34,786 bases of DNA from Adlercreutzia sp. ZJ473. GTDB lineage: Bacteria; Actinomycetota; Coriobacteriia; Coriobacteriales; Eggerthellaceae. Below, one piece after another: positions 13,299 to 25,352 of this stretch (positions within the stretch are counted from its first letter, which is position 1; the number at the start of each line of letters is the position of its first letter). The position numbers and the translations under genes were made by a program. Location: contig NZ_JAAVTO010000028.1 of assembly GCF_013185065.1 (NCBI RefSeq), forward strand, positions 1 through 34,786, read 5' to 3'. The notes beneath the pieces are model-generated. The model was not told the DNA's origin. It did no database searches and saw only the letters and a program-made list of their open reading frames with translations.

Positions 13299-14453
13299 TC
13301 AGCCCCGCTCGCATCCCTGCCTGGCAACTGCGGCCATGAGCTTGATGCGATTCACCTGGTTCACGCCGCTCGTGCCTGGGTCGAACTCCACGGTGGCTAT
13401 GTTCGCGCCCGAGCCGTAACGGCGAAGGCGGCGCAGGACCCCGCGCCCGACCACGTGCCCCGAAAGGCAGCCGAACACGCTCGCGTAGACGATGTCGGTG
13501 ACGCCCTCGTCGACGAGAATGCTCATCCAACCCGCAAAAGACCAGCCCAGGCCATGGGTGAGCAGCTCGGGAACGAAGCGCAGCCCCGCGCTTCTCACCC
13601 GCTCGTAGGTTACGGCGTGCGGAATGACGCGCAGCCCCTCGCTCGCGCACGCACACAGGCCATCCACCTCCTCGAGGAACGTCCCCTCTGCGCCTTGGGC
13701 GTGCAGGGCATAGCTTACCAGGCCTGACAGGTACGGAGCCACCACTTCGCAGCCCTCCTCCTCGAGCACCTGAAGCAAGCCCCCGTTGACGGACGGGCAG
13801 AACAGCGCCGCCGCCGTCCCCGCAACGCCGACGCGCGGCTTGGAGAGGCGGGCCGTCGGCAGAAGCCGCGCCGCCTCGTCGTCGAGACTGCGCATGAAGC
13901 TCCTCGCGTCGAACGGCTCTCCCGAACGCAGCATCTCCAAAACCCTGCCGCGCCAGCTCTCGGAAAGCGCGTCGAAATAGGGCACCTGCGGCCCCTCCAA
14001 GTGGGGGCGCATGCGCAGCCGAAGCTGAAGCAGCAGGTCACCCGCCATGAGGGCATGCGCAAGGCAGCGCTGCTCAGCAGAGGAGGCGCCGCGGAGGAAC
14101 TCGTTGAAGTCATGCAGCGTGACCCCTGCTAACCCCGCTTCGCGCAAGCCGCGCTCCACGAAGAAGGGGATGTCCTTGCAGCGGCATCCCGGGCACAGCA
14201 TCGGCACGCACACGTCAGCCGACTCGCCGGGGATGCCCGCGCCCGCTTGCGCCTGCACGGCGCGATGAGCCTGCGCCACGGCCACGACAGCCGTGAAGCA
14301 CGCGTCGTTGTTCACCAGCGACAGTCCCCGGCGAATCGCATCAGCGTCCACCTCCGTCGGAAAATGCGCACCCAAGCCGGCGCCTTGCGCCGCCGCAGAG
14401 AGGAACCCCCCGTGCCAATCGGACGGAAGGGGAATGATCAGGCGCTCTCTCAT
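13299..14453 (-). CDS. 2-hydroxyacyl-CoA dehydratase (HgdB)-like protein, detached C-terminal part of a giant activase
   Basis: A 384-residue protein matching the C-terminal third of the large activase/DUF2229 fusion proteins: VNNDACFTAVVAV, then a cysteine-rich stretch CVPMLCPGCRCKDIPFF where the family usually has QTGGGCRATNY, then FGCLSGHVVGRGVLRRLRR and EFDPGTSGVNQVNRIKLM at the end. The conserved cysteines suggest an iron-sulfur cluster like those of HgdB or the double-cubane protein. Its ATG overlaps the TGA of the upstream activase (ATGA), so translation is coupled. Reaction unknown; the partner activase would feed it electrons with ATP hydrolysis. The 206 bases to folD hold no gene. 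Confidence 0.85.
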   Translation of the reverse strand: MRERLIIPLPSDWHGGFLSAAAQGAGLGAHFPTEVDADAIRRGLSLVNNDACFTAVVAVAQAHRAVQAQAGAGIPGESADVCVPMLCPGCRCKDIPFFVERGLREAGLAGVTLHDFNEFLRGASSAEQRCLAHALMAGDLLLQLRLRMRPHLEGPQVPYFDALSESWRGRVLEMLRSGEPFDARSFMRSLDDEAARLLPTARLSKPRVGVAGTAAALFCPSVNGGLLQVLEEEGCEVVAPYLSGLVSYALHAQGAEGTFLEEVDGLCACASEGLRVIPHAVTYERVRSAGLRFVPELLTHGLGWSFAGWMSILVDEGVTDIVYASVFGCLSGHVVGRGVLRRLRRYGSGANIATVEFDPGTSGVNQVNRIKLMAAVARQGCERG

Positions 14454-17400
14454 CGAAGACCCCTTGCTCTCTCGCCTGCCATGCCGCCCCGCAGCTCACG
14501 CGTCCTGAGGCCGATGATGCCCGCCTGTGCCGCCGCCAGCGACCTTATGCGAATGCGCACCGCCGCAAGATCGCACATCTCGTCGATCTTGAGCATCGTC
14601 ATCATCTTCCCGGACGCCCGCAGGACGTCCCTCACCTTGTCAGACGCCGCGGCATCCAAGCCGCAGCCGAACGAGCACAGCTCAACCAGCTCGAGCTCGT
14701 CGTGACGCGCGACGAGCTGCGCCGCCGCCAGCAGCCGGTCAGGATACTCCCACAAGCGCTCCCCCGCGCCAGGCGCCTGCCGGGCACCGAGGCAGTCGTC
14801 AGTCAGCACCGCGTACCCGCACGATCGCAAGAGCCCCGGAATGCCATGGTGAACCGCCGGGTCAACGTGATAGGGACGGCCCGCCAGCACAATGCCGCGC
14901 GCGCCTGACGCGGCGATCTGCTCCAAGGCGCGCGCGCCCTCCGCCCGCAGGGCGCGCCTGAAAGCGCTCTGCGCGGCACGTCCTGCCCGTACCGCCACGT
15001 CGACCTCAGCACGCGTGACGTCAGGCCACGCCGACGCAAGCGACGCGCGAACGACTTCTGCGAGCGCTGCGGCCGCATCCGGGAAATCATCCCGCGCGTC
15101 CCCCAGCAGACACGCGACCTGCGGCATGACGAAGCGGACCTTCTGCCGATCCGCCGTGCTCACGTTCTCCGCGAGCACGAGGCCGTAGCCCGCCGCCACC
15201 GGGCAGGCAGACCTCGGCATGCTCACGCCGTCCACAAGGGGCAGAAAGACGGTGTCCACCCCGCGGTCGATCAGGTCGAGCAGCTGACCGTGGGCGAGCT
15301 TCGCCGGATAGCACACCGACTCAGACGGTATAGTCTCCAAAGCCCGGCCTCGCAGCTCGCCGCAAGACAGCACGACGCGGAACCCAAGCGCCGACAGGAG
15401 CGCATGCCAGAACGGATACGTCTCGTACATGTCGAGGGCGCGCACCACGCCGATCTCCCCGCGTCGCGCGTCGCTCAGCTCAAGCGAGGGACGATCGAAC
15501 AGGGCGTGATAGCGCCAGTCGAACAGATCAGGTAGCGTCCTCGTGCTCGACGCCCCCGCACGCATCCCCCCAGGATGCGCTTGCTCGCCCGCACCACGCT
15601 CGCAGCGGTTTCCCACCGTGAAGGTTCGCCTCTCCCCCGCATCAGAGAACGTCGTGACCATGAGCGTGCAGGCGTTTGGGCAGCGACGGCACGTCACCGT
15701 CTTTCCAGCGCAGGAAAGCCCCCTCATGCGCTCGCGCGAAAGCAGCGCCGACGTCGACTGGCCGCGCCCGCGCTCCCGCGCGATGAGCGCAGCGCCGTAT
15801 GCCCCCATGTAGGCGGCGATGTCCGGTCGGTGCACCGTGCGACCGCATACGCGCTCGAAGGCCCGCAGCACTGCGTCGTTGGAGAACGTCCCGCCCTGCA
15901 CCACGATGCTCTCGCCCAAGGCGGACGCGTCGCGTACGCGCATGACCTTCTCGAGCGCGTTTCTCACCACGGAGTACGCGAGCCCTGCCGATATGTCCCC
16001 CGTGCTCGCGCCTTCCTTCTGCGCATGCCGCACGCGCGAGGTCATGAACACCGTGCAACGCGTCCCCAGGTCAACGGGGTTCTCAGCCGTAAGCGCCGCG
16101 TTGACGAAGCGATCGAGCCGCACGTTCATCGACCACGCCATCCCCGAGAGCAGCGCCCCGCATCCGCTCGAGCACGCCTCGTTCAAGACCACGTCGTCAA
16201 CCGCCCCGTCGCGCAGGTAGACGCACTTGATGTCCTGACCGCCGATGTCCAAGATGAAGTCCACGTCAGGAACAAGCTCGAGTGCCGCGCGCACATGGGA
16301 GACCGTCTCCACCTCGCCCGAGTCGAACGAGAACGCCTGCTTGAGGTATCCCTCGCCATATCCCGTGACGCAAGCGTGCGCGATAGTGATAGCCGGGTTG
16401 CCGTCATGCAGGCGCGGAAGGCGCTTCCGCAGGTCGGACAGCATGTCACGCGCCACTTCCATGAGATTTCCCGCCGAACGCTCGTACCCGGTGCGCAAGA
16501 TGCGACCGTCCTCGGAGACCAGCGCGTACTTGATCGCCTCCGACCCCGAGTCCACGCCCAGAAAAGCGCGCCCCTCATAGCTTGCCAGGCCAGCGCGAGG
16601 TGCGCGGCAGCGCGCATGCTCGTCTGCGAAACGGCGATGCTCGTCACGCGAGGCGAACAGGGGCTCGAGGCGCGAGAGGGTGGCGCCGTCATCCCAGGAA
16701 ACGCCCTCCAGCTGATCCAGCAGCTGCGCCAGCGTGCAGGACGATTCGCCGCGAGCCTCGAAAGCAGCTCCTTGGGCGACGAACAGGTGTCCTTCGGCGG
16801 GCACCAGCATGTCCTCGTCGGAAAGCCCCAGGCGCTCCTTGAACCGCCCGCGCAAGTACGATAGGAAATGAAGCGGCCCGCCGAGCAGGGCGACCTTGCC
16901 CGTGATGGGCCGCCCGCATGCCAGCCCGGCTATGCACTGGACAGACACCGCGTCGAAGACCGAGCCGGCGATGTCCTCGCGCGAGACGCCCTCGTTCAAC
17001 AAGGGCCTCACGTCCATCTGCGCAAACACCGCGCACCGCGAGGCGATGGGGTGGATGGTGGCGCATCCGTGCGCCAGGTGGTTGAGCTTCTCGGCGTTGA
17101 CGTCCAGCATGCCCGCTATGGTGTCGATGAAGCCGCCTGTGCCTCCTGCGCACGTGCTGTTCATGCGCAGCTCCTCGCCGTCGGACAGAAAGAGGATCTT
17201 GGAGTCCTCCCCGCCGATCTCAATGGCAACGTCGGCTTCAGGGATGAGGCGCTCAAGCGCCCGGCGGCAGGCGACGACCTCCTGCGTGAACGGAAGGCCC
17301 AGCGCGCCCGCCAGCTGCATGCCCGCCGAGCCGGTGACGCCCACCGCGAACAGCTCGCTCGGGTAGCGTCGCATGGCGTTGCGCACCACGTAGGAGAGCG

Positions 17401-17551
17401 TCTCCCTCACGTTGGAGAGGTGTCGATCGTAGCTTGAGTACAACAGTTCTCCATCATCGTCTTGTACGACGATCTTGATGGTCTTCGACCCGATGTCGAT
17501 GCCCATGCGAAGCGGCGTTGCGCCGGAGCCCTCCTTGCTTGAGACGCCCAT
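14450..17551 (-). CDS. CoA-enzyme activase with two BcrAD/BadFG (HgdC-like) ATPase domains and a DUF2229 region
   Basis: About 1033 residues. Two ASKHA-fold ATPase domains in tandem: the first opens with MGIDIGSKTIKIVV, the second with FLGVDSGSEAIKYALV. Each keeps both cysteines that hold the bridging [4Fe-4S] cluster in HgdC (MNSTCAGGTGGF and ASRCAVFAQMD; NEACSSGCGALL and GTRCTVFMTSR). A cysteine knot CRRCPNACTL follows, then DUF2229-like sequence from VVRALDMYETYPFWHALLSA, and an HgdB-like part ending in SFGCGLDAAASDKVRDVL. Such proteins use ATP to deliver very low-potential electrons. ATG 17551 is chosen because AGGGA precedes it and it clears the upstream stop. Lies downstream of a molybdenum enzyme and ferredoxin; normally fused to the next gene product. 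Confidence 0.88.
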   Translation of the reverse strand: MGVSSKEGSGATPLRMGIDIGSKTIKIVVQDDDGELLYSSYDRHLSNVRETLSYVVRNAMRRYPSELFAVGVTGSAGMQLAGALGLPFTQEVVACRRALERLIPEADVAIEIGGEDSKILFLSDGEELRMNSTCAGGTGGFIDTIAGMLDVNAEKLNHLAHGCATIHPIASRCAVFAQMDVRPLLNEGVSREDIAGSVFDAVSVQCIAGLACGRPITGKVALLGGPLHFLSYLRGRFKERLGLSDEDMLVPAEGHLFVAQGAAFEARGESSCTLAQLLDQLEGVSWDDGATLSRLEPLFASRDEHRRFADEHARCRAPRAGLASYEGRAFLGVDSGSEAIKYALVSEDGRILRTGYERSAGNLMEVARDMLSDLRKRLPRLHDGNPAITIAHACVTGYGEGYLKQAFSFDSGEVETVSHVRAALELVPDVDFILDIGGQDIKCVYLRDGAVDDVVLNEACSSGCGALLSGMAWSMNVRLDRFVNAALTAENPVDLGTRCTVFMTSRVRHAQKEGASTGDISAGLAYSVVRNALEKVMRVRDASALGESIVVQGGTFSNDAVLRAFERVCGRTVHRPDIAAYMGAYGAALIARERGRGQSTSALLSRERMRGLSCAGKTVTCRRCPNACTLMVTTFSDAGERRTFTVGNRCERGAGEQAHPGGMRAGASSTRTLPDLFDWRYHALFDRPSLELSDARRGEIGVVRALDMYETYPFWHALLSALGFRVVLSCGELRGRALETIPSESVCYPAKLAHGQLLDLIDRGVDTVFLPLVDGVSMPRSACPVAAGYGLVLAENVSTADRQKVRFVMPQVACLLGDARDDFPDAAAALAEVVRASLASAWPDVTRAEVDVAVRAGRAAQSAFRRALRAEGARALEQIAASGARGIVLAGRPYHVDPAVHHGIPGLLRSCGYAVLTDDCLGARQAPGAGERLWEYPDRLLAAAQLVARHDELELVELCSFGCGLDAAASDKVRDVLRASGKMMTMLKIDEMCDLAAVRIRIRSLAAAQAGIIGLRTRELRGGMAGERARGLR

Positions 17552-17556
17552 GGAAC

Positions 17557-17832
17557 TTATCCCTGCTCCCAAGGGTAGACAGGCCGCGGCGTCTGATTCG
17601 CCTCACGACGCTTTTTTGCCGCCGCCGCAAGCGCGATGATCTGCTCGTGCTCAACCTTCTTCTTCGCGAGGTAGGCCTGCTTGGCACGGGAGCGCATCAC
17701 GTCGGTGATGGGCTCGCCGCAGTTCGGACAAGCGTCATCGAGCAGGTTGATGTCGCCGCCGCATGCGGCGCACGTCGAGCGCTTGTCGTAGCACTTCCCG
17801 CAACGGGAGCAGTCGGTGCAGGAAAACGTCAT
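17557..17832 (-). CDS. Small four-CxxC (zinc-ribbon-like) protein
   Basis: A 91-residue protein with four CxxC pairs (C5/C8, C11/C14, C21/C24, C35/C38) in its first 38 residues, enough for two zinc ribbons or small iron-sulfur sites, followed by a Lys/Ala-rich helix and a PVYPWEQG end. AGGAGGG lies a few bases before the ATG. It is immediately downstream of a strong hairpin and its stop precedes the activase ATG by five bases, so it is probably made with the activase. Role unknown; a metal or redox accessory of the activase is a guess from position only. Confidence 0.78.
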   Translation of the reverse strand: MTFSCTDCSRCGKCYDKRSTCAACGGDINLLDDACPNCGEPITDVMRSRAKQAYLAKKKVEHEQIIALAAAAKKRREANQTPRPVYPWEQG

Positions 17833-17914: not shown

Positions 17915-18247
17915 CTAGCGATATACCGCCAAGTGGCCCTCAGTCTCATCTGCCAGCTTGTTGATCTCGTCAAGCTCGCCAACATGCAGCGCATGGGAGA
18001 TGCAGATGGCGGCGCAGGGAGCGTTGCCTTCCTCCTTCTCCAGGCAGTACGCGCACTTGTCGAGGCGGTACGGATACGGCGACATGAACATCTCGTGACG
18101 GCCGTCAACCACATCGGGCTTCCCGAGGAACACGCGCATGTACGTGTCGGTCACAGGCAGGTCGTAGTAGTTCTGGCACGCCAGCTGGCACGCCGAGCAC
18201 CCCACGCAGTAGTCAAGCTCTACGAGCACTCCAATTTTCTTTGCCAT
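17915..18247 (-). CDS. Two-cluster [4Fe-4S] ferredoxin partner of the molybdenum enzyme
   Basis: A 110-residue electron carrier resembling a shortened DmsB/HybA-type subunit. First cysteine set C14-x2-C17-x2-C20-x3-C24 (CVGCSACQLAC), second C65-x2-C68-x9-C78-x3-C82. The four further cysteines of full DmsB subunits are missing. No signal peptide or membrane segment, so cytosolic. GAAGGG lies seven bases before ATG 18247. It follows the molybdopterin enzyme gene by 46 bases. In known Eggerthellaceae catechol dehydroxylase clusters of the cytosolic type, the catalytic gene is accompanied by just such a small ferredoxin and an MFS carrier. Confidence 0.9.
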   Translation of the reverse strand: MAKKIGVLVELDYCVGCSACQLACQNYYDLPVTDTYMRVFLGKPDVVDGRHEMFMSPYPYRLDKCAYCLEKEEGNAPCAAICISHALHVGELDEINKLADETEGHLAVYR

Positions 18248-18293
18248 GATCAATCCCTTCGTTACTCACTCGCGTCAGATTCAGCGAATCAAA

Positions 18294-20732
18294 TTAAAAC
18301 TCGTTCACCTTGGAAACCTTGCACAGCATGCTGCGCATGGGCGCAGCGCCGAAGCCCGGGTCAGATCCTTCCGCAGTGCACAGAACGTTGGGGTTGGCCT
18401 GATCCCAGCTGAAGCCAGGAAGGTTGAGCTCCTCGCAGGCGTGCTTGTAGTTCGGGCGGCACATGGAAGCTGCGCCCTTGATGACGCCCTTGGAGATGCG
18501 GGCCTTCGCGCGGATCTTGCCGCGGCGGGTCTCGACCCACAGCCACTCGCCCTCGGAGATCTGGCGCTCGCGCGCGTCCTCGTCATTGAGCTCGACGTAA
18601 GGCCAGGGCTCCAAGATGCGCTGGTGCGCGATGTTGGTCCATGCGGAGTGGTAGAACGCGTAGTCGCGCGCGCCGGTGGTCAGACACAGGTCAAACTCCT
18701 TGTACACCTCTGGCGTCTGATACGGGCTCTCAAACGGCTCGCTGTAGCTCGGCAGCGGGGAGTTGTAGCCGTACGAGGGCATCTGCTCGGAGTACACCTC
18801 GATGCGGCCCGTCGGCGTCTGGAACTTGACCAGGCCCTTCTCATGCTGCCTGGTGGTGCGGTTCTCACCGCCGTACTCGATGAAGTAGCCGATCTCGGCG
18901 GCCTTCTCGTAGTCGGTGATGGGCTCCTTGCCGTTGGGGATCAGGTGGAACTCGTTCAGGCGCCACAGCTGCATCTCCTCGGAGCTCTCCCATGGCCACA
19001 GGTCGGGAGCGAAGCGCTTGCCCAGCTCGCGCTGGAAGTCCCAGTCGTCGCGCGCCTCACCAGGAGGAAGCACGGCCTTCTGCGGGATGATGAACGGGCA
19101 GGGCTCGGGGTAGAGCTCCTCGTCGAACACGCCGACGCGCTCAGACCAGTGGGCAGCCGGCAGGACGATGTCGGCGATCTCGTTGCCCGGGGTCATGAAG
19201 TAGTCCATGTCGACGTTCAGCTCCAGAACGTCGCCCGTGAGCGCCTTGTGGATCTTCTGCGAGTCCTCGAAGCAGCCCAGCGGGTCGTTCGCAACCGAGA
19301 TCATGACCTTGGCCGGCCACGGCTCGCCCGTGATCATGGACTCCCATACGTCGTTGGGGATGTTGGCGTTGCCGTAGACCTGCGTGTACATGGGATGCTT
19401 GTCGTAGCCCAGGCGCAGCTTCGGGGGAACGCGGTCGTACGCGGTGATCTTCGGGTCGAGCATGAACTCCCAGAAGGTGTTGAAGTAGATGCCGCCCTTG
19501 TCGTCCAGCGGCGGGTTGAGCAGCAGCTGGAGGATGGTGATGGCGCGGCCGGACTGCAGCGCGTTGGAGGTCATCATGCAGGCGCCCAGGTAGGCGGTCA
19601 GAAGCGACGGCTTGTCGTCGGCAGGGTTGGTGATGATGTCGAACATCTGCAGGATCTTCTCGACCGGGGTCCAGGTGACGGAGGACACCTTCTCGGGCGT
19701 CCACACGGCGATCTCGTCCTTGTAGGTCTCGAGGCCGGTCTTGCAGGTCATCTTCGAGCCGTCCTTGAGCGTCACCTCGAAGGCGCCCATGAGCGCAGGG
19801 CGCACGTCCTCGCGGTTGAAGCTCTCGGTCTCGGGATGCCAGATGGCGATGTCGTTCGCGTTCTCATCCCACACCACGTAGCGCTCGTCAGAGCCGTCCT
19901 CGGAAAGCTCGGCCTCACGCAGCATCATACGAGCGTCGGCGTTGATGAGGAACGGGGCGTTGGTCCACTTGATGAGCATCTCGTGAGCACGCTCGAACTT
20001 GCCGCTCGTGAACATGAGGTTGGCAAGGCCCATGGCCAGCGCGCCGTCGGTGCCGGGGCGAACCGGGACCCACAGGTCGGCCTTCGCGCCGATGTCGCGG
20101 AACACCGGGTCCACCACCACGACGTGGGCGCCGTTGCGCTTGGCGTCCATGATGCGCAGGCCGGAGTACTGGCGCGAGCGGATGGGGTTGGTGCCCCACA
20201 TGACGATGGAGCCGGCGTTGCGATAGTCGCACGCCTCGTGGGGATGGAACATGCGACCCCAGGTCACATGCGTCTGAGCCAAGTTGGGGAGCAGGCAGAC
20301 ATGGGTCGGCCACACCTTGCCGCCGCCGTTCCAGGAGTTGTTCAGGCGGTCGAGGAAGTGGTTGGAGCCACGGCCGGTGCCCTGGGAGATGATGACGGAC
20401 TGCGGGCCGTACTCGTCGATGACCTTGCGCACCTTCGCCTCGATGAGGTCGATGGCCTCGTCCCACGTGATGCGCTCCCACTCGTCCTTGCCGCGGTTCT
20501 CGGTGTGAGGCTCGTCGACCGACCAGGTCTTGCGCTTCATGGGGTACTTCAGGCGATCGGGATGGGCGTGGATCTCGGGAGCCGAGAACGCCTTCACGCA
20601 CAGGATGCCGTCGTTGACCGGGCAGTCCGGATCGCCCTCAACGCGCGTGATCTCGTTGTTGTCATTCACGGTGAGAATGACGCCGCACTTCGAATGGCAA
20701 TCGAAGCACACGGTACGTACTTTCTTCTCCAT
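18294..20732 (-). CDS. Cytosolic molybdopterin oxidoreductase, acetylene-hydratase / catechol-dehydroxylase-like
   Basis: An 812-residue bis-MGD (DMSO reductase family) catalytic subunit. The N-terminal [4Fe-4S] site is C9-x2-C12-x3-C16 ... C45, at nearly the same positions as in acetylene hydratase. C146 in THVCLLP is the likely Mo/W ligand (compare Cys141 there). There is no Tat signal, so it acts in the cytosol. Acetylene hydratase has an aspartate after the second cluster cysteine (Asp13); here it is H13, so that reaction is unlikely. The set of enzyme, small ferredoxin downstream and MFS carrier upstream matches the cytosolic catechol dehydroxylase clusters (Hcdh, Cadh, Dodh type) of gut Eggerthella and Gordonibacter. 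The substrate cannot be read from sequence; a reductive dehydroxylation or transhydroxylation of a phenolic compound is inferred. GAGAGGA precedes ATG. Confidence 0.88.
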   Translation of the reverse strand: MEKKVRTVCFDCHSKCGVILTVNDNNEITRVEGDPDCPVNDGILCVKAFSAPEIHAHPDRLKYPMKRKTWSVDEPHTENRGKDEWERITWDEAIDLIEAKVRKVIDEYGPQSVIISQGTGRGSNHFLDRLNNSWNGGGKVWPTHVCLLPNLAQTHVTWGRMFHPHEACDYRNAGSIVMWGTNPIRSRQYSGLRIMDAKRNGAHVVVVDPVFRDIGAKADLWVPVRPGTDGALAMGLANLMFTSGKFERAHEMLIKWTNAPFLINADARMMLREAELSEDGSDERYVVWDENANDIAIWHPETESFNREDVRPALMGAFEVTLKDGSKMTCKTGLETYKDEIAVWTPEKVSSVTWTPVEKILQMFDIITNPADDKPSLLTAYLGACMMTSNALQSGRAITILQLLLNPPLDDKGGIYFNTFWEFMLDPKITAYDRVPPKLRLGYDKHPMYTQVYGNANIPNDVWESMITGEPWPAKVMISVANDPLGCFEDSQKIHKALTGDVLELNVDMDYFMTPGNEIADIVLPAAHWSERVGVFDEELYPEPCPFIIPQKAVLPPGEARDDWDFQRELGKRFAPDLWPWESSEEMQLWRLNEFHLIPNGKEPITDYEKAAEIGYFIEYGGENRTTRQHEKGLVKFQTPTGRIEVYSEQMPSYGYNSPLPSYSEPFESPYQTPEVYKEFDLCLTTGARDYAFYHSAWTNIAHQRILEPWPYVELNDEDARERQISEGEWLWVETRRGKIRAKARISKGVIKGAASMCRPNYKHACEELNLPGFSWDQANPNVLCTAEGSDPGFGAAPMRSMLCKVSKVNEF

Positions 20733-20759
20733 TGCTGTCCTCTCTTCTCTCTATTGGAC

Positions 20760-20834
20760 CCTGCGTGCCTCCTGCGCACGCAGGTAGTTCCCCCTGCTGC
20801 GAACGCGCTCCCCAACGAGCCCCTCGGGGAGCGC
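20760..20834 (-). promoter_or_regulatory. Two tandem hairpins in the leader of the molybdenum enzyme gene
   Basis: CCTGCGTGC / GCACGCAGG (20760-20784, 9 bp, loop 7) and GCGCTCCCC / GGGGAGCGC (20805-20834, 9 bp, loop 12) fill the 153-base gap between the MFS stop and the next start. Neither has a T-run. They could end or process the MFS transcript, or stabilise the downstream mRNA. Confidence 0.5.
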
Positions 20835-20885
20835 CGCGCACATGCGCCAGCGTGCCGCCAGCGCCTTTGCCTCCAAGACGCCTCG

Positions 20886-22229
20886 CTAGAACGTCTTGTC
20901 CTTGGTCTCAGGGCCGAACAGGAACACCAGCAGGCCGGGGATGATGACCATGGCGGCTGCGATGTACATGGTGGTGTACACGCCGAAGCTGGTCATGACG
21001 CCCGCCAGGATGATGGGTCCCAAGATGGAGCCCATGCGGCCCCAGGACGTCGCCAGGCCGTTGCCCGTAGTGCGAATGTTGGTCTCGTACAACTCTGGCG
21101 TGTACAGAGCCATCATCATGGCGTTGAGGTACTTGCCGAACTGATACAGGATGCCCGTGATGATCAGCATGACCAACGTGGTGGACGCACCGTAGGCGAT
21201 GCCGAAGATCGACGTGCACAAACCGGCGATGAGGAACGTCTTCTTGCGCCCGAGCTTCTTGGCAGACCATGTTGCGAAGAACCATGCCGGGATGCCGCCC
21301 AGGATGCCGATGGTCACGAACCCAGTGGACTGGACGACGTCGAAGCCCTTCTCCATGAGGATGGTGGTGAGCCACGTAGTCAGGCCGTAGTCGCTGAACA
21401 TGCTGATGAACCACACGAAGAAGCACAGAACGGTGACCCTCAGGTACTTCGGGCTGAACAGGTCCTTGAACGACGCCTTCTTATCGGTGCGCTCGATGCG
21501 AACCGGCTCGGGCAGCTCCTTGTGGCGGGCGATGGCCTCCTGCTCGAACTTCGTGCAGATGGCATCAGCCTCGTCGTATCGCCCCTTCGCCTCAAGCCAC
21601 AGGGGCGACTCGGGGCACGTCTTGATGATGCCGATGATGAACAGCGCCGGGAGCGCCTCAGCCAGGTACACGCCGCGCCAGTCGAAGTGCGGCAGGATGA
21701 GCACGGTGAGCACTCCGGCCACCGCGAAACCGATGGGCGTCATGAGCTGGTAGAGCGTCATGTACTTCGGACGCTCGGCACCCGAGACGATCTCGGAGAG
21801 ATAGCTGAGGGCCACGGGGAACTGCCCGCCCAAGCCAACGCCCAATATGAAGCGCATGGTGAACAGGTAGTAGATGTTGGGCGAGAACACCAGGGCGAAC
21901 CCGGCAATACCCCAGAGGAGCATGGCACCGACGATGGTCTTCTTGCGGCCGATGCGGTCAGCGATGCGGCCGGCGCCGATGGCACCGATGAACATGCCCA
22001 AGAAGCAGATTGACGAGTAGTAGCCGCCCGTTGTGGCATCCATTTCGAAGTATTCGCGAATGGTCGGCATCAAGAAGCTCGTTCCGCCCAGGTCGATGGT
22101 TTCGGCAAACCACCCCATGAGCACGAAGAAGATGATGACGACCGTATGCGGAGACGTCGGGATGCGGTTCATTCGATCTGCGATTGTGTACTCAGGCTTA
22201 GCCTGAGCTGCACCAGAAGCGTTTGGCAT
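20886..22229 (-). CDS. MFS transporter (sugar/aromatic-acid symporter type)
   Basis: A 447-residue twelve-helix carrier. It has the loop 2-3 motif GRIADRIGRKKT, helix 4-5 RFILGVGLGGQFPVALSYLSE, PESPLWLEAKGR after helix 6, the large central loop, and a second-half ATWSAKKLGRKKT, as in metabolite:H+ symporters including those for aromatic acids. Start ATG 22229 with AAGGGGGT upstream; the frame continues 36 codons further without family sequence. A hairpin (GCCTTTC / GAAAGGC, 22252-22270) lies just before the ribosome site. It precedes the molybdenum enzyme gene on the same strand and would import its substrate or export the product. Confidence 0.9.
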   Translation of the reverse strand: MPNASGAAQAKPEYTIADRMNRIPTSPHTVVIIFFVLMGWFAETIDLGGTSFLMPTIREYFEMDATTGGYYSSICFLGMFIGAIGAGRIADRIGRKKTIVGAMLLWGIAGFALVFSPNIYYLFTMRFILGVGLGGQFPVALSYLSEIVSGAERPKYMTLYQLMTPIGFAVAGVLTVLILPHFDWRGVYLAEALPALFIIGIIKTCPESPLWLEAKGRYDEADAICTKFEQEAIARHKELPEPVRIERTDKKASFKDLFSPKYLRVTVLCFFVWFISMFSDYGLTTWLTTILMEKGFDVVQSTGFVTIGILGGIPAWFFATWSAKKLGRKKTFLIAGLCTSIFGIAYGASTTLVMLIITGILYQFGKYLNAMMMALYTPELYETNIRTTGNGLATSWGRMGSILGPIILAGVMTSFGVYTTMYIAAAMVIIPGLLVFLFGPETKDKTF

Positions 22230-22493: not shown

Positions 22494-23471
22494 TTACCGC
22501 CCTTGCGCAAGTTCAAACGTGCCCGCGAAGCGACCACGCTCGGCGCCTTCGCGCACGCGCTTCTTCATGAACGAGATGACCTCTTGGACGCGCGGCGACT
22601 CCCCGTCGACACGCGGCACCAACACGCCGAACTCCGTGCTGAAGAACCCCCGCGTGGGAACGGTTCTGATGCGGTCAGGCAAGACGCCCACACCCTCGAT
22701 GAGCTTGGGGGCGAAGCTTATGAACTGGTTCTCCATGATGCGCGCGTAGATGACGGGCGTGGCGTTCGTCACCGTCTTGACGCACTCCTCCCGTATGTAG
22801 TCATCGAGCGCGTCGCCGAGCACCGTGTCCTGGTAACGCGCCACCGAGCAGCCGTCGACGTCGCCTGGCACGATCTCAGACTTGCCAGCCAGAGGGGAGT
22901 AGGCTGACACGAGGGCGACGAGCGGCGACGTGAACAGCGCCTCGTACTCCATGTCGCTCTCCTCCATCAGCTTTTGCACGAACCCCCAGTACTTCTCGAT
23001 GGCGGGTATCGAGATGAACCCGAAGGAATCCTCGCCGCCGCGAGCGACGATATGGGGAACCACACGGTAAACGTTCGACTCCTTGAACTTGACGTTGAAC
23101 GGGAACTGCCCCGGCTTCTGGATGTCGAGGAACGTGGCGACGTACTGCGACACGCACGGCGTCACCGTAACCCTGACCGTTTCATGGCGCGCACCTCCCC
23201 CGATCTCCGCGAGACGGTATCCGGCGAGCGTCCCCTTGACGCGCTCCAGCGCGTCAATGACGCCGTCAACCTGCCGGCTCAACTCGCGTCCCGCCGGCGT
23301 GAGCGATATGACGTTGTTCCGATACGAGGTGAGCGTCACGCCGAAGTCCTTCTCGAGCTGGTGAATCGCCCGGCTGACGCCTTGGGGCGTCATATAGAAG
23401 TTTGTCGCGGTCTTGGAAATGGAAAGTGTCTCGGAAAAATCCTTGAAGTAGTACAGATACTCAACATGCAT
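22494..23471 (-). CDS. LysR-type transcriptional regulator
   Basis: A 325-residue regulator. The N-terminal winged helix-turn-helix reads LSISKTATNFYMTPQGVSRA, then IHQLEKDFGVTL and ISLTPAGREL, the standard LysR pattern. The remainder is the two-lobed effector-binding domain, beginning near VRVTVTPCVSQYVATF. GGGGGGA is close to ATG 23471. Most LysR genes face their target; this one is on the same strand as the MFS and molybdenum-enzyme genes that follow. It likely senses a small-molecule substrate of that cluster or of the OFA-type carrier on the other side; which one cannot be told from sequence. Confidence 0.92.
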   Translation of the reverse strand: MHVEYLYYFKDFSETLSISKTATNFYMTPQGVSRAIHQLEKDFGVTLTSYRNNVISLTPAGRELSRQVDGVIDALERVKGTLAGYRLAEIGGGARHETVRVTVTPCVSQYVATFLDIQKPGQFPFNVKFKESNVYRVVPHIVARGGEDSFGFISIPAIEKYWGFVQKLMEESDMEYEALFTSPLVALVSAYSPLAGKSEIVPGDVDGCSVARYQDTVLGDALDDYIREECVKTVTNATPVIYARIMENQFISFAPKLIEGVGVLPDRIRTVPTRGFFSTEFGVLVPRVDGESPRVQEVISFMKKRVREGAERGRFAGTFELAQGR

Positions 23472-23655: not shown

Positions 23656-23868
23656 CTATGCTTTGGGAGCCGAAGGCGGCTGCGGGCCCTTCGGGGCACC
23701 AGGCATGGCAGGAGCTGGGGCTCCGGGCGAGGCCGGAGCGCCTGCCTCGGGAAGCGGCGCCTTGCAGAACGGGCAGACGACGGGGCGGAAATTGGGCGAC
23801 ACGATCTTCTTGCCGCACTCGGGACAGATAAGCGGGCCCGACGTCGTATCAGGTGGTCTGAAACACAT
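23656..23868 (-). CDS. Small zinc-ribbon protein with Pro/Ala-rich tail
   Basis: A 70-residue protein. Residues 15-35 form one zinc ribbon (C15PEC18 and C32PFC35); residues 38-70 are almost only Pro, Ala, Gly and Ser and likely disordered. GGAGGAGA stands four bases before the ATG. It has a promoter (23948-23976) and a strong terminator of its own, so it is a single-gene unit between the LysR and OFA-type MFS genes. I do not recognise a named family. It is the second small CxxC protein of this region but shares no other similarity with the one at 17557. Confidence 0.75.
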   Translation of the reverse strand: MCFRPPDTTSGPLICPECGKKIVSPNFRPVVCPFCKAPLPEAGAPASPGAPAPAMPGAPKGPQPPSAPKA

Positions 23869-23947
23869 ACGATCTCCTCCTTCATGAAGCCGTTACACAG
23901 CAAGCCGAAGCAGCGCCTCCGTTCGCTGCGCCGTTTACGGTAGCCCC

Positions 23948-24080: not shown

Positions 24081-25352
24081 ATGGCTGAAAACGCTGATCT
24101 GAAAGTAGCACAGATAAGACGGAAGAGGGTCGCTTATCTGGCCGTGTCCACCGTCTCGCTTCTCTTCCTCGGCCTCATATACGCGTTCTCCCTATTCTCC
24201 GCGCCCATGTGCGCCACGTTCGAACTCGAGAAGAACGACGTGAGCCTCACGTTCAACATCATGATGATGGCGTTTTGCGTGGGCGCCGTCATCGGCTCGC
24301 AAATCGAGAAGGTCGTCGGGGTCAGGGGCTCCATCATATGCGCGGGGATCATGTTTCTCGTGGGGTTCGCCGGAACGGGGCTCTTCGGCTACGGCAGCAT
24401 CATGGCGGTCTACCTGCTCTACGGCGTATGCGGCGGCATGGGCGTGGGCATCGGGTACAACTCCATCATCGCCACCACCAACGTGTGGTTTCCCGACAAG
24501 GTGGGCTTCTCATCCGGCGTGCTCATGATGGGGTTCGGCGTCTCCGCGCTGCTCGTCGGCAACCTGTCCCTGAGCTTCGTCGCATCAGCGGGGCTCACCC
24601 CCGTGCTCATAGCGCTCGGCATAGCGACGTTCGCGGTTGCGTTAGCCTGCGCATTCATACTCAAACGTCCGCCGGAGAACATCATAGAGATCATGACGGG
24701 CAAGGAAGCCGTCACCACTGGCGACGACCCCGCTGACAACGACAAGCCCCTCTCCACTCCTTCGTTCTATGTGTACTGGATCTGGGCCATCATCGTCATC
24801 GCCATCGGCCTTGCCACCATCGGAAGCTGCGCGTCTGACGCTCAGCTGGTCGGCCTCGACACGGCGTTCGCCACCATGCTCGTAGGGGTCGTCTCCACGG
24901 CGAACGGCCTGGCACGCATCGTCATGGGCGTCGTGTACGACAAGACCAACGTCAAGGTCACCATGGCCGTCAACGCCGGCGTGGCCGTCATCGCCGCAGG
25001 CGGCATCTTCGTCGCGTTCGCCACTGGCATGGGCGTCTTCTACGTGATCGGAGCGGTGTGCTGCGGCTTCTGCTACGGCACCGTCCCTGTCGCCACCTCG
25101 GCGTTCTCCCGCCAACGCTTTGGCTCGAAGAACTACCCGCTCAACCTTTCCATCGCGAACCTCGCCATCTTGTTCGGCTCGCTCCTCAACATCGCCGTGC
25201 AGGCGGCCGTCGGCGGCGCCGAGAACCGCCTGGGCGTATTTGCAGCACTGCTCGCACTGTCCGCCATCGCACTCGCCGACGTCATCCCCTTCTCCAAGAT
25301 GTGGAACCGCGACATGAAGCGACTCGATGAGGCAAGGACGCAGGCGAACTGA
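24081..25352 (+). CDS. OFA-type MFS transporter (oxalate:formate antiporter family)
   Basis: A 423-residue twelve-helix carrier. The N-terminal helix FLGLIYAFSLFSAPM with the Tyr-Ala-x-Ser pattern, LTFNIMMMAFCVGAVIGS, GVCGGMGVGIGYNSIIAT followed by WFPDKVGFSSGVLMMGFG, and the second-half LARIVMGVVYDK and GFCYGTVPVATSAF are typical of the OFA group. These move small carboxylates or related organic anions. GAGGGGG stands seven bases before ATG 24081. It is the only plus-strand gene of the island and ends seven bases from the fchA stop (convergent). Substrate unknown; an aromatic or organic acid used by the adjoining redox genes is plausible. Confidence 0.87.
   Translation: MAENADLKVAQIRRKRVAYLAVSTVSLLFLGLIYAFSLFSAPMCATFELEKNDVSLTFNIMMMAFCVGAVIGSQIEKVVGVRGSIICAGIMFLVGFAGTGLFGYGSIMAVYLLYGVCGGMGVGIGYNSIIATTNVWFPDKVGFSSGVLMMGFGVSALLVGNLSLSFVASAGLTPVLIALGIATFAVALACAFILKRPPENIIEIMTGKEAVTTGDDPADNDKPLSTPSFYVYWIWAIIVIAIGLATIGSCASDAQLVGLDTAFATMLVGVVSTANGLARIVMGVVYDKTNVKVTMAVNAGVAVIAAGGIFVAFATGMGVFYVIGAVCCGFCYGTVPVATSAFSRQRFGSKNYPLNLSIANLAILFGSLLNIAVQAAVGGAENRLGVFAALLALSAIALADVIPFSKMWNRDMKRLDEARTQAN

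Follow-up and report, generated by a model that had tools for sequence, protein, structure and literature searches.

An Eggerthellaceae gene cassette pairing a bis-pterin molybdenum/tungsten enzyme with an archerase-like activase

The window analysed here is a stretch of 34,786 nucleotides from Adlercreutzia sp. ZJ473 (family Eggerthellaceae; contig NZ_JAAVTO010000028.1), and its subject is the minus-strand gene at 18294-20732 together with the genes that accompany it. The product, P0002, is near certainly a cytoplasmic member of the bis-pterin molybdenum/tungsten (Mo/W) oxidoreductase family. An earlier note on this DNA described it as an uncharacterised catechol-dehydroxylase-like enzyme and overlooked the ATPase/iron-sulfur (Fe-S) cassette downstream of it, which comprises an archerase-like activase and a 384-residue protein, X384. 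We tentatively propose that the cassette encodes a reductive Mo/W enzyme whose substrate is brought in by an importer and whose electrons come from an ATP-driven donor of its own.

According to this proposal, a LysR-type regulator would sense an organic substrate (an aromatic acid, perhaps, or another organic acid), which a major facilitator superfamily (MFS) carrier would import. The Mo/W centre, bound by C146, would then remove an oxygen function or otherwise reduce the substrate, with H13, H144 and N150 likely lying near it. Electrons would reach the centre through the small Fe-S subunit, and the archerase-like ATPase with the double-cubane-like X384 would supply very-low-potential electrons, either stoichiometrically or as reductive activation. 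Perhaps the substrate is an aromatic acid; the hint comes from the importer, whose best NCBIfam model is aromatic acid/H+ symport TIGR00895, and it is weak because the match scores 220 bits, below the cut-off of 419.

On the minus strand the order is LysR - MFS - P0002 - Fe-S protein - Cys-rich protein - activase - X384, and a second MFS gene is divergent upstream:

18294-20732, minus strand: catalytic bis-pterin (Mo/W) subunit P0002, 812 residues, ATG start (Pfam, PDB sequence search, alignment)
17915-18247, minus strand: small Fe-S (electron-transfer) subunit, 110 residues, two 4Fe-4S motifs
17557-17832, minus strand: small Cys-rich zinc-ribbon-like protein, 91 residues, without Pfam or NCBIfam match, conserved in the cassette
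14450-17551, minus strand: activase (archerase-like), 1033 residues, two BadF/HgdC ATPase domains plus DUF2229
13299-14453, minus strand: X384, 384 residues, probable split-off component-D/double-cubane-protein-like half
20886-22229, minus strand: MFS importer upstream of P0002, start uncertain (22172 or 22229)
22494-23471, minus strand: LysR-type regulator, start 23471 or 23489
24081-25352, plus strand: second MFS transporter (lactate/oxalate-formate type), divergent

The activase and X384

The activase is present in all nine orthologous loci (the window, L051-L057 and G140; L and G numbers are our handles for loci and genomes), and X384 is present in all eight that reach past the activase, L056 ending inside it. 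The LysR and first MFS genes also lie near in the orthologous loci; in L051, where the contig begins some 600 bases ahead of the MFS gene, no LysR is seen. Among 138 genomes surveyed in the family, the seven that carry an enzyme at least 81% identical to P0002, the window's genome included, are exactly the seven with an activase at 61-65%, while the other activase matches, among those listed, reach at most 52%. In the activase tree the cassette copies cluster as a single clade (bootstrap 100), with longer, housekeeping-like activases as their neighbours. The L055 activase, which reads in two frames, perhaps through an error in a metagenome-assembled genome (MAG), was excluded from this tree.

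The activase matches TIGR00241 at 212 bits (cut-off 125) and the Pfam families PF01869 and PF09989. Its cysteines are found as C134/C173 and C460/C464/C499, in a C-x2-C-x3-C ... C site at 621-650, and in DUF2229 as C747/C783/C963; 16 of the activase cysteines are conserved in all seven full-length cassette copies. No family match was obtained for X384 in Pfam, NCBIfam or the further family scans. It matches the C-terminal part of longer activases, with single-sequence blastp E-values down to 1e-21; hmmsearch E-values are approximate, since the X384 profile held one trigger-factor-like row (L057 17395-18621). The X384 structure model (mean predicted local distance difference test score, pLDDT, 80.8), whose underlying alignment includes two N-terminally shortened rows (L051 and L052), finds the double-cubane cluster protein (DCCP) 7yzm as its best structural match (Z 10.9, root-mean-square deviation 4.7, 268 aligned). 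The first ten structural matches (Z 10.9 to 7.6) all belong to the component D/benzoyl-coenzyme A (CoA) reductase superfamily, the next row scoring 5.8, and so do the first nine Foldseek matches (E 1e-4 to 5e-4). Five cysteines (C52, C87, C90, C235 and C329) are conserved in all six aligned copies of X384, and the main motifs are visible in L055 and G140.

The features that mark archerase/component D systems were found in the pair: a BadF/HgdC ATPase with cluster cysteines and a component D fold with cysteines. Judged from sequence and model, the activase and X384 look like a complete ATP-driven electron relay, in which X384 and DUF2229 may be the counterparts of the two component D halves. 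A fused activase-DUF2229-component-D protein of about 1500-1700 residues is also encoded in L147-L151 and in most family genomes; we know of no function for it.

The resemblance of X384 and DUF2229, taken together, to the component D halves would also suit a separate pathway enzyme, similar to a 2-hydroxyacyl-CoA dehydratase or benzoyl-CoA reductase and acting before or after the Mo enzyme. Around one sister-clade Mo enzyme, L210 (G053:C25), lie genes for four family III CoA-transferases, an acyl-CoA dehydrogenase and a flavin adenine dinucleotide (FAD) oxidoreductase; these neighbours hint at carboxylic acids, yet they also fit the activase and X384 as a CoA-dependent step. However, no CoA ligase or CoA-transferase was found among the eight window proteins scanned or in the shared core of the other cassettes, and nearly every genome of the family has a fused-type homologue, whether or not it has such a pathway; we consider this explanation improbable.

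Returning to a dedicated donor for the Mo/W enzyme, several observations weigh against it. A long activase homologue is near-universal (a match at E 1e-150 in 130 of the 138 family genomes), and its general role may therefore be unrelated to molybdenum. The paralogous loci L058 and G170 (55-60% identity) contain the Mo enzyme and the Fe-S subunit, with no activase in the stretch covered; in the sister clade, where six genes per side were covered and some loci are cut by contig ends, only two of 14 loci have one (L139 and L142, Gordonibacter). Across cassettes the activase is 60-65% and X384 33-50% identical, both evolving much faster than the Mo enzyme. The coupling of activase and Mo enzyme is inferred from their linkage, and linkage is not proof. 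In Gordonibacter-type dehydroxylases, moreover, electrons are predicted to travel through the small Fe-S subunit alone (PMC11887054; papers are cited by PubMed Central number, each from an excerpt of its text).

In the two Gordonibacter loci, the activase next to the sister enzyme clusters with a housekeeping-like copy (bootstrap 85) and not with the cassette activases. This is no more than suggestive of two independent recruitments of an activase to this Mo lineage; our guess is that roughly one quarter of the sequence of a Gordonibacter genome is found no more than 6 kb from a Mo gene. A more specific form of the proposal, which we regard as rather doubtful, is that the archerase and double-cubane-like relay would drive a bis-pterin site to reduce a phenol without a neighbouring hydroxyl, or another unactivated C-O bond. 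For a catechol dehydroxylase, the hydroxyl removed must belong to a catechol (PMC12771579). No title or abstract opening listed by the literature searches made here couples an archerase-type activase to a bis-pterin Mo enzyme, which does not show absence from print; one review covers archerases and Mo enzymes, in separate sections of the excerpted text (PMC11574389).

The catalytic subunit P0002

The open reading frame (ORF) proposed in the earlier note is borne out. A competing plus-strand ORF, 18246-22013 (1255 residues), lies antisense to both the Mo gene and the MFS gene; the minus-strand gene was taken as real because a dicodon model trained on these loci selects it and because its protein has clear homologues, and the plus-strand frame looks like a high-GC shadow ORF. 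P0002 aligns end to end with homologues in other genera at 81-90% identity and matches the Pfam families Molybdopterin (6e-37), Molydop_binding (3e-15) and Fe4S4 (7e-12). Its N-terminus, MEKKVRTVCFDC, is shared as a start by close orthologues and, read directly, leaves no room for a twin-arginine translocation (Tat) or Sec signal, in agreement with the absence of a Tat signal noted before. The flanking MFS carrier (22229-20886, upstream) and 110-residue Fe-S protein (18247-17915, downstream) were also read correctly, and both are on the same strand. The source genome (2.63 Mb in 119 contigs) has 47 matches to the Mo-enzyme domain and also encodes the dehydroxylase-clade proteins L028, L197, L200, L201 and L202.

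The cluster motif of P0002 is C9-x2-C12-H13-x2-C16 ... C45, followed by K47, and the metal ligand is C146, within THVCLLPN. In an alignment of 144 rows, C9, C12, C16, C45 and C146 fall on the cysteines of acetylene hydratase and H13 on its catalytic aspartate, as had been claimed. The acetylene hydratase positions, which we take to be C9, C12, C16, C46, D13 and C141, give cysteine offsets to P0002 of 0, 0, 0, 1 and 5; the PDB chain is numbered 3 lower than this scheme. The histidine pointed out in the earlier note does replace the aspartate, but it is not odd: wherever this column is readable in the Gordonibacter-type dehydroxylase clade (39 of 39 rows), it is His as well.

Acetylene hydratase is the best PDB sequence match of P0002 (E 1.6e-57) and the top Foldseek match (1.0e-44), practically tied with perchlorate reductase (1.5e-44); the P0002 model used is only fair (mean pLDDT 75.8). 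Pyrogallol transhydroxylase is the weakest of 53 PDB sequence matches (E 9e-7) and stands at Foldseek rank 31. The residue matches and family hits of P0002 exceed chance.

The ranking of acetylene hydratase in sequence and fold, together with the intact Fe4S4 motif and K47 that the two proteins share, raises the question of a redox-neutral enzyme, whether hydratase, dehydratase or transhydroxylase, with the activase and X384 as its reductive activator, the part that HgdC plays for 2-hydroxyacyl-CoA dehydratase. Acetylene hydratase itself needs strong reduction. Archerases activate dehydratases by one-electron transfer (PMC11574389). The catalytic Asp is, however, replaced by His, acetylene hydratase, as a partial row, appears to lie elsewhere in the tree, and P0002 has a two-cluster Fe-S subunit of its own, which suggests a net flow of electrons, so that we hold a redox-neutral reaction to be decidedly improbable and keep to a reductive one.

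Distribution and relation to the catechol dehydroxylases

A pattern-based scan of 84,980 species genomes gave 50 loci, seven of them at 66-90% identity to P0002 (L051-L057), one paralogue at 58% (L058) and the remainder lower. Orthologues are carried by Ellagibacter isourolithinifaciens, Gordonibacter sp. 28C, Gordonibacter sp. Marseille-P2775 and MAGs; Ellagibacter and Gordonibacter belong to the same family as the source genome. In the family survey, an orthologue at 81% or more was found in seven genomes and a 57-60% paralogue in two, one of which is among the seven. The best match in G. pamelaeae 7-10-1-b is a sister protein at 39-42%.

P0002 is 87-90% identical across genera (81% in one MAG), nearly as conserved as the window's formate-tetrahydrofolate ligase (89-92%), and is therefore under strong constraint. 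Recent transfer of the Mo gene was considered and rejected, as fourfold-site identity (0.44-0.66 between genera, 0.91 between the two closely related Gordonibacter strains) does not point to it. The small Fe-S subunit is 88-89% identical in Ellagibacter and Gordonibacter. As PMC11585353 gives 72% identity as an isofunctional threshold, the orthologues above it would share a substrate, and the same substrate is likely in the five genomes compared at 81-90%. That each enzyme of this kind acts on one phenolic compound, as stated earlier, is broadly right, with the qualification that urolithin dehydroxylases accept several urolithins (PMC12771579) and that corticoids, which are non-phenolic, are substrates of one Mo enzyme (PMC11574389).

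The reference dehydroxylases are anchors assigned by gene context and not by accession, and the trees contain no verified Eggerthella-type member. The Gs Vadh anchor, G100:C12:80937-83348, comes from the published description and locus-tag arithmetic. The Eldh1/2 anchors are the adjacent G. pamelaeae pair G101:2585754-2590821, which are 74.5% identical to each other against a published 74%. For Eadh1-3, the anchors are the Mo genes that surround an Amidohydro_2 gene; G. pamelaeae has two of them and Ellagibacter three, following PMC12771579. The labels EadhX and EadhY stand for Eadh1 and Eadh2 in either order. To build the alignment, 180 phmmer hits were filtered by dropping those shorter than 640 residues or containing X and collapsed at 97% to 142, and two PDB rows were added; cut N-termini appear as gaps in one reference-clade row and four sister rows.

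In the FastTree phylogeny of these 144 rows, a clade of 40 rows (support 1.0) takes in every anchor (Gs Vadh, Eldh1/2 and Eadh1-3) and leaves P0002 out; P0002 falls within a 24-row clade (support 0.999), and both clades lie in a wider group with acetylene hydratase (support 0.78). To our knowledge, the P0002 clade has no characterised member. IQ-TREE with a mixture model, run on a hand-picked subset of 44 rows, gave Shimodaira-Hasegawa-like approximate likelihood ratio (SH-aLRT) values of 100 for the reference clade, 100 for the P0002 clade and 96 for P0002 plus two sister groups. Acetylene hydratase, a partial row sharing 450 positions with P0002, groups there with other uncharacterised proteins and not with P0002. 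In approximately unbiased (AU) tests, whose groups were named only after the first tree had been inspected, joining the P0002 clade with the reference clade was rejected (p 3.8e-8), and joining all P0002-side groups with it was not (p 0.117), so that a sister relation to the reference clade is possible. The trees are strong evidence for a P0002 clade separate from that of the anchors placed here.

The motifs show the same division. In the reference clade C9 is found in none of 39 readable rows, His13 in all 39, Pro149 with Arg150 in every one of the 40 rows and LC-x-R-C in 38 of them; the resulting C-x-x-P-R signature is empirical, drawn from this sequence set. In the P0002 clade C9, K47, THVCL, P149, N150 and His13 are each found in six of six members, THVCL and N150 being absent from all 40 reference rows, and P0002 has LCVKA where the reference clade has LC-x-R-C. 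HVCL is present in all 14 members of the sister clade, with residue 150 His in 13 and Asn in one. An insert near residues 257-333 of P0002 is absent from six reference and six sister members inspected and present in a Tat-bearing group.

Despite this separation, an ordinary catechol or pyrogallol dehydroxylase acting on one dietary substrate, with the activase genes as incidental hitch-hiker or maturation helper, is a serious alternative, though on balance an unlikely one. P0002 is 32.5-34.5% identical to the six assigned reference enzymes over 680-701 aligned residues, and it is thus still a homologue under the loose rule of PMC11585353, where more than 30% identity was used for catechol dehydroxylase 'homologues' with five other queries by tBLASTn. 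H13 is common to both groups, and P0002 has the Gordonibacter-type architecture of a cytoplasmic alpha-beta pair with a small 4Fe-4S subunit and an MFS carrier nearby (PMC11887054). Gs Vadh likewise has LysR and two transporters (PMC11887054), and the clade uniting the P0002 group, the sister groups and the dehydroxylases survived the AU test. On the other side stand the rejected union of P0002 with the reference clade, the missing C-x-x-P-R and LC-x-R-C and the retained C9, the lack of a LuxR match among the eight neighbouring proteins scanned, and the conservation of the activase in every orthologous locus. Of the earlier description, what holds is the kinship with catechol dehydroxylases (32-35% identity to the assigned enzymes) and a cytoplasmic two-subunit molybdoenzyme with an importer and a small Fe-S protein. 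The likeness drawn to Hcdh, Cadh and Dodh loci holds for Dodh-like Gordonibacter-type enzymes, which are cytoplasmic and two-subunit, and fails for E. lenta Hcdh and Cadh, which are Eggerthella-type, three-subunit and membrane-anchored (PMC11887054).

Two known enzymes were considered as identities for the P0002 orthologues and rejected. Gs Vadh was suspected from the 87% orthologue in Gordonibacter sp. 28C and from the LysR and two transporters of the Gs Vadh cluster. With a locus-tag step that we assume to be 5, the tag C1878_02750 is gene 550; as NODE_1 holds about 478 genes, this fits the 72nd gene of NODE_2. The published cluster, of two subunits, two transporters and LysR (PMC11887054), fits G100:C12:80937-88266, while the P0002 orthologue is at NODE_1:80588-82993. 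The Eadh1-3 genes lie in different clusters, next to the Amidohydro_2 gene, and their products belong to the reference clade; the more than 1000-fold response to ellagic acid is confined to a single cluster (PMC12771579). The same Gordonibacter sp. 28C has an island, G100:C12:1-106000 (L131-L136), where about 100 kb contain at least 12 Mo dehydroxylase genes of the Gordonibacter type, among them the gene assigned to Gs Vadh.

As for the remaining neighbours, homologues of the second MFS transporter occur in several cassettes at varying positions (39-64% identity), and it is a looser member; genes farther out were judged to lie outside the cassette because they differ in the other loci and genera. 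Cys-rich proteins of the 17557-17832 type adjoin Mo dehydroxylase genes elsewhere (L131-L136, L139, L141, L143, L144 and L197) and could possibly be an unrecognised accessory protein. Small zinc-ribbon, proline-rich ORFs of the MCFRP...CPxCGK type recur near Mo-enzyme loci (L056, L058, L143 and L146); the window copy, at about 23690-23870 (minus strand), was read from raw sequence only.

Catechol dehydroxylases shape the gut processing of diet, hormones and drugs, and most members are without a known substrate; the P0002 group breaks their sequence rules and brings its own putative ATP-dependent electron machinery. If the proposed dedicated donor is correct, it bears on the energy supply of molybdenum enzymes and on the range of compounds open to reduction by the gut flora, and gut Eggerthellaceae might reduce substrates beyond those of ordinary catechol dehydroxylases. 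The proposal is directly testable, with an orthologue in the cultured Gordonibacter sp. 28C, a strain employed in the cited literature, and genetic tools published for close relatives.

Comparison with known systems

With the Gordonibacter-type enzymes (Dodh, Eddh/Cldh, Gp Hcdh, Gs Vadh, Eldh1/2 and Eadh1-3), P0002 shares a cytoplasmic catalytic subunit accompanied by a small 4Fe-4S protein, neighbouring MFS and, in some cases, LysR genes, the His after the second cluster Cys and the Cys metal ligand. Those placed here lack C9 and have LC-x-R-C and C-x-x-P-R, whereas P0002 has C9, LCVKA and THVCLLPN, and it differs further in the insert, absent from the members inspected, the separate clade and the activase cassette. 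The Eggerthella-type enzymes (Dadh, El Hcdh and Cadh) have an Fe-S motif in the catalytic subunit, as P0002 does; in the excerpt of PMC11574389 the Eggerthella enzymes retain this motif and the Gordonibacter enzymes do not. They are exported and consist of three subunits with a membrane anchor, whereas P0002 has no signal peptide, and no anchor gene was found among the proteins scanned between 13299 and 25352. P0002 thus appears to mix a Gordonibacter architecture with an Eggerthella-like motif. The corticoid 21-dehydroxylase Elen_2453 cluster (FdhD, ferredoxin, Mo enzyme and SPFH protein) differs too, being set apart by its gene list only, as excerpted.

Acetylene hydratase (2E7Z) matches P0002 in the cluster cysteines, the Lys after the fourth Cys and the Cys metal ligand. 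It has the catalytic Asp13 where all six members of the P0002 clade have His, and P0002, unlike it, is followed by a separate Fe-S subunit gene and appears to take a different tree position.

The archerase/component D systems (HgdC-HadBC, the benzoyl-CoA reductases BzdNO and MbdNOPQ, and the double-cubane protein DCCP/DCCP-R) share with the cassette the two BadF/HgdC ATPase domains with cluster cysteines, and X384 is predicted to share the component D fold. Unlike these systems, the cassette is without CoA-handling genes among the proteins scanned, and its version is fused, duplicated, spread over two ORFs and linked to a Mo/W enzyme gene.

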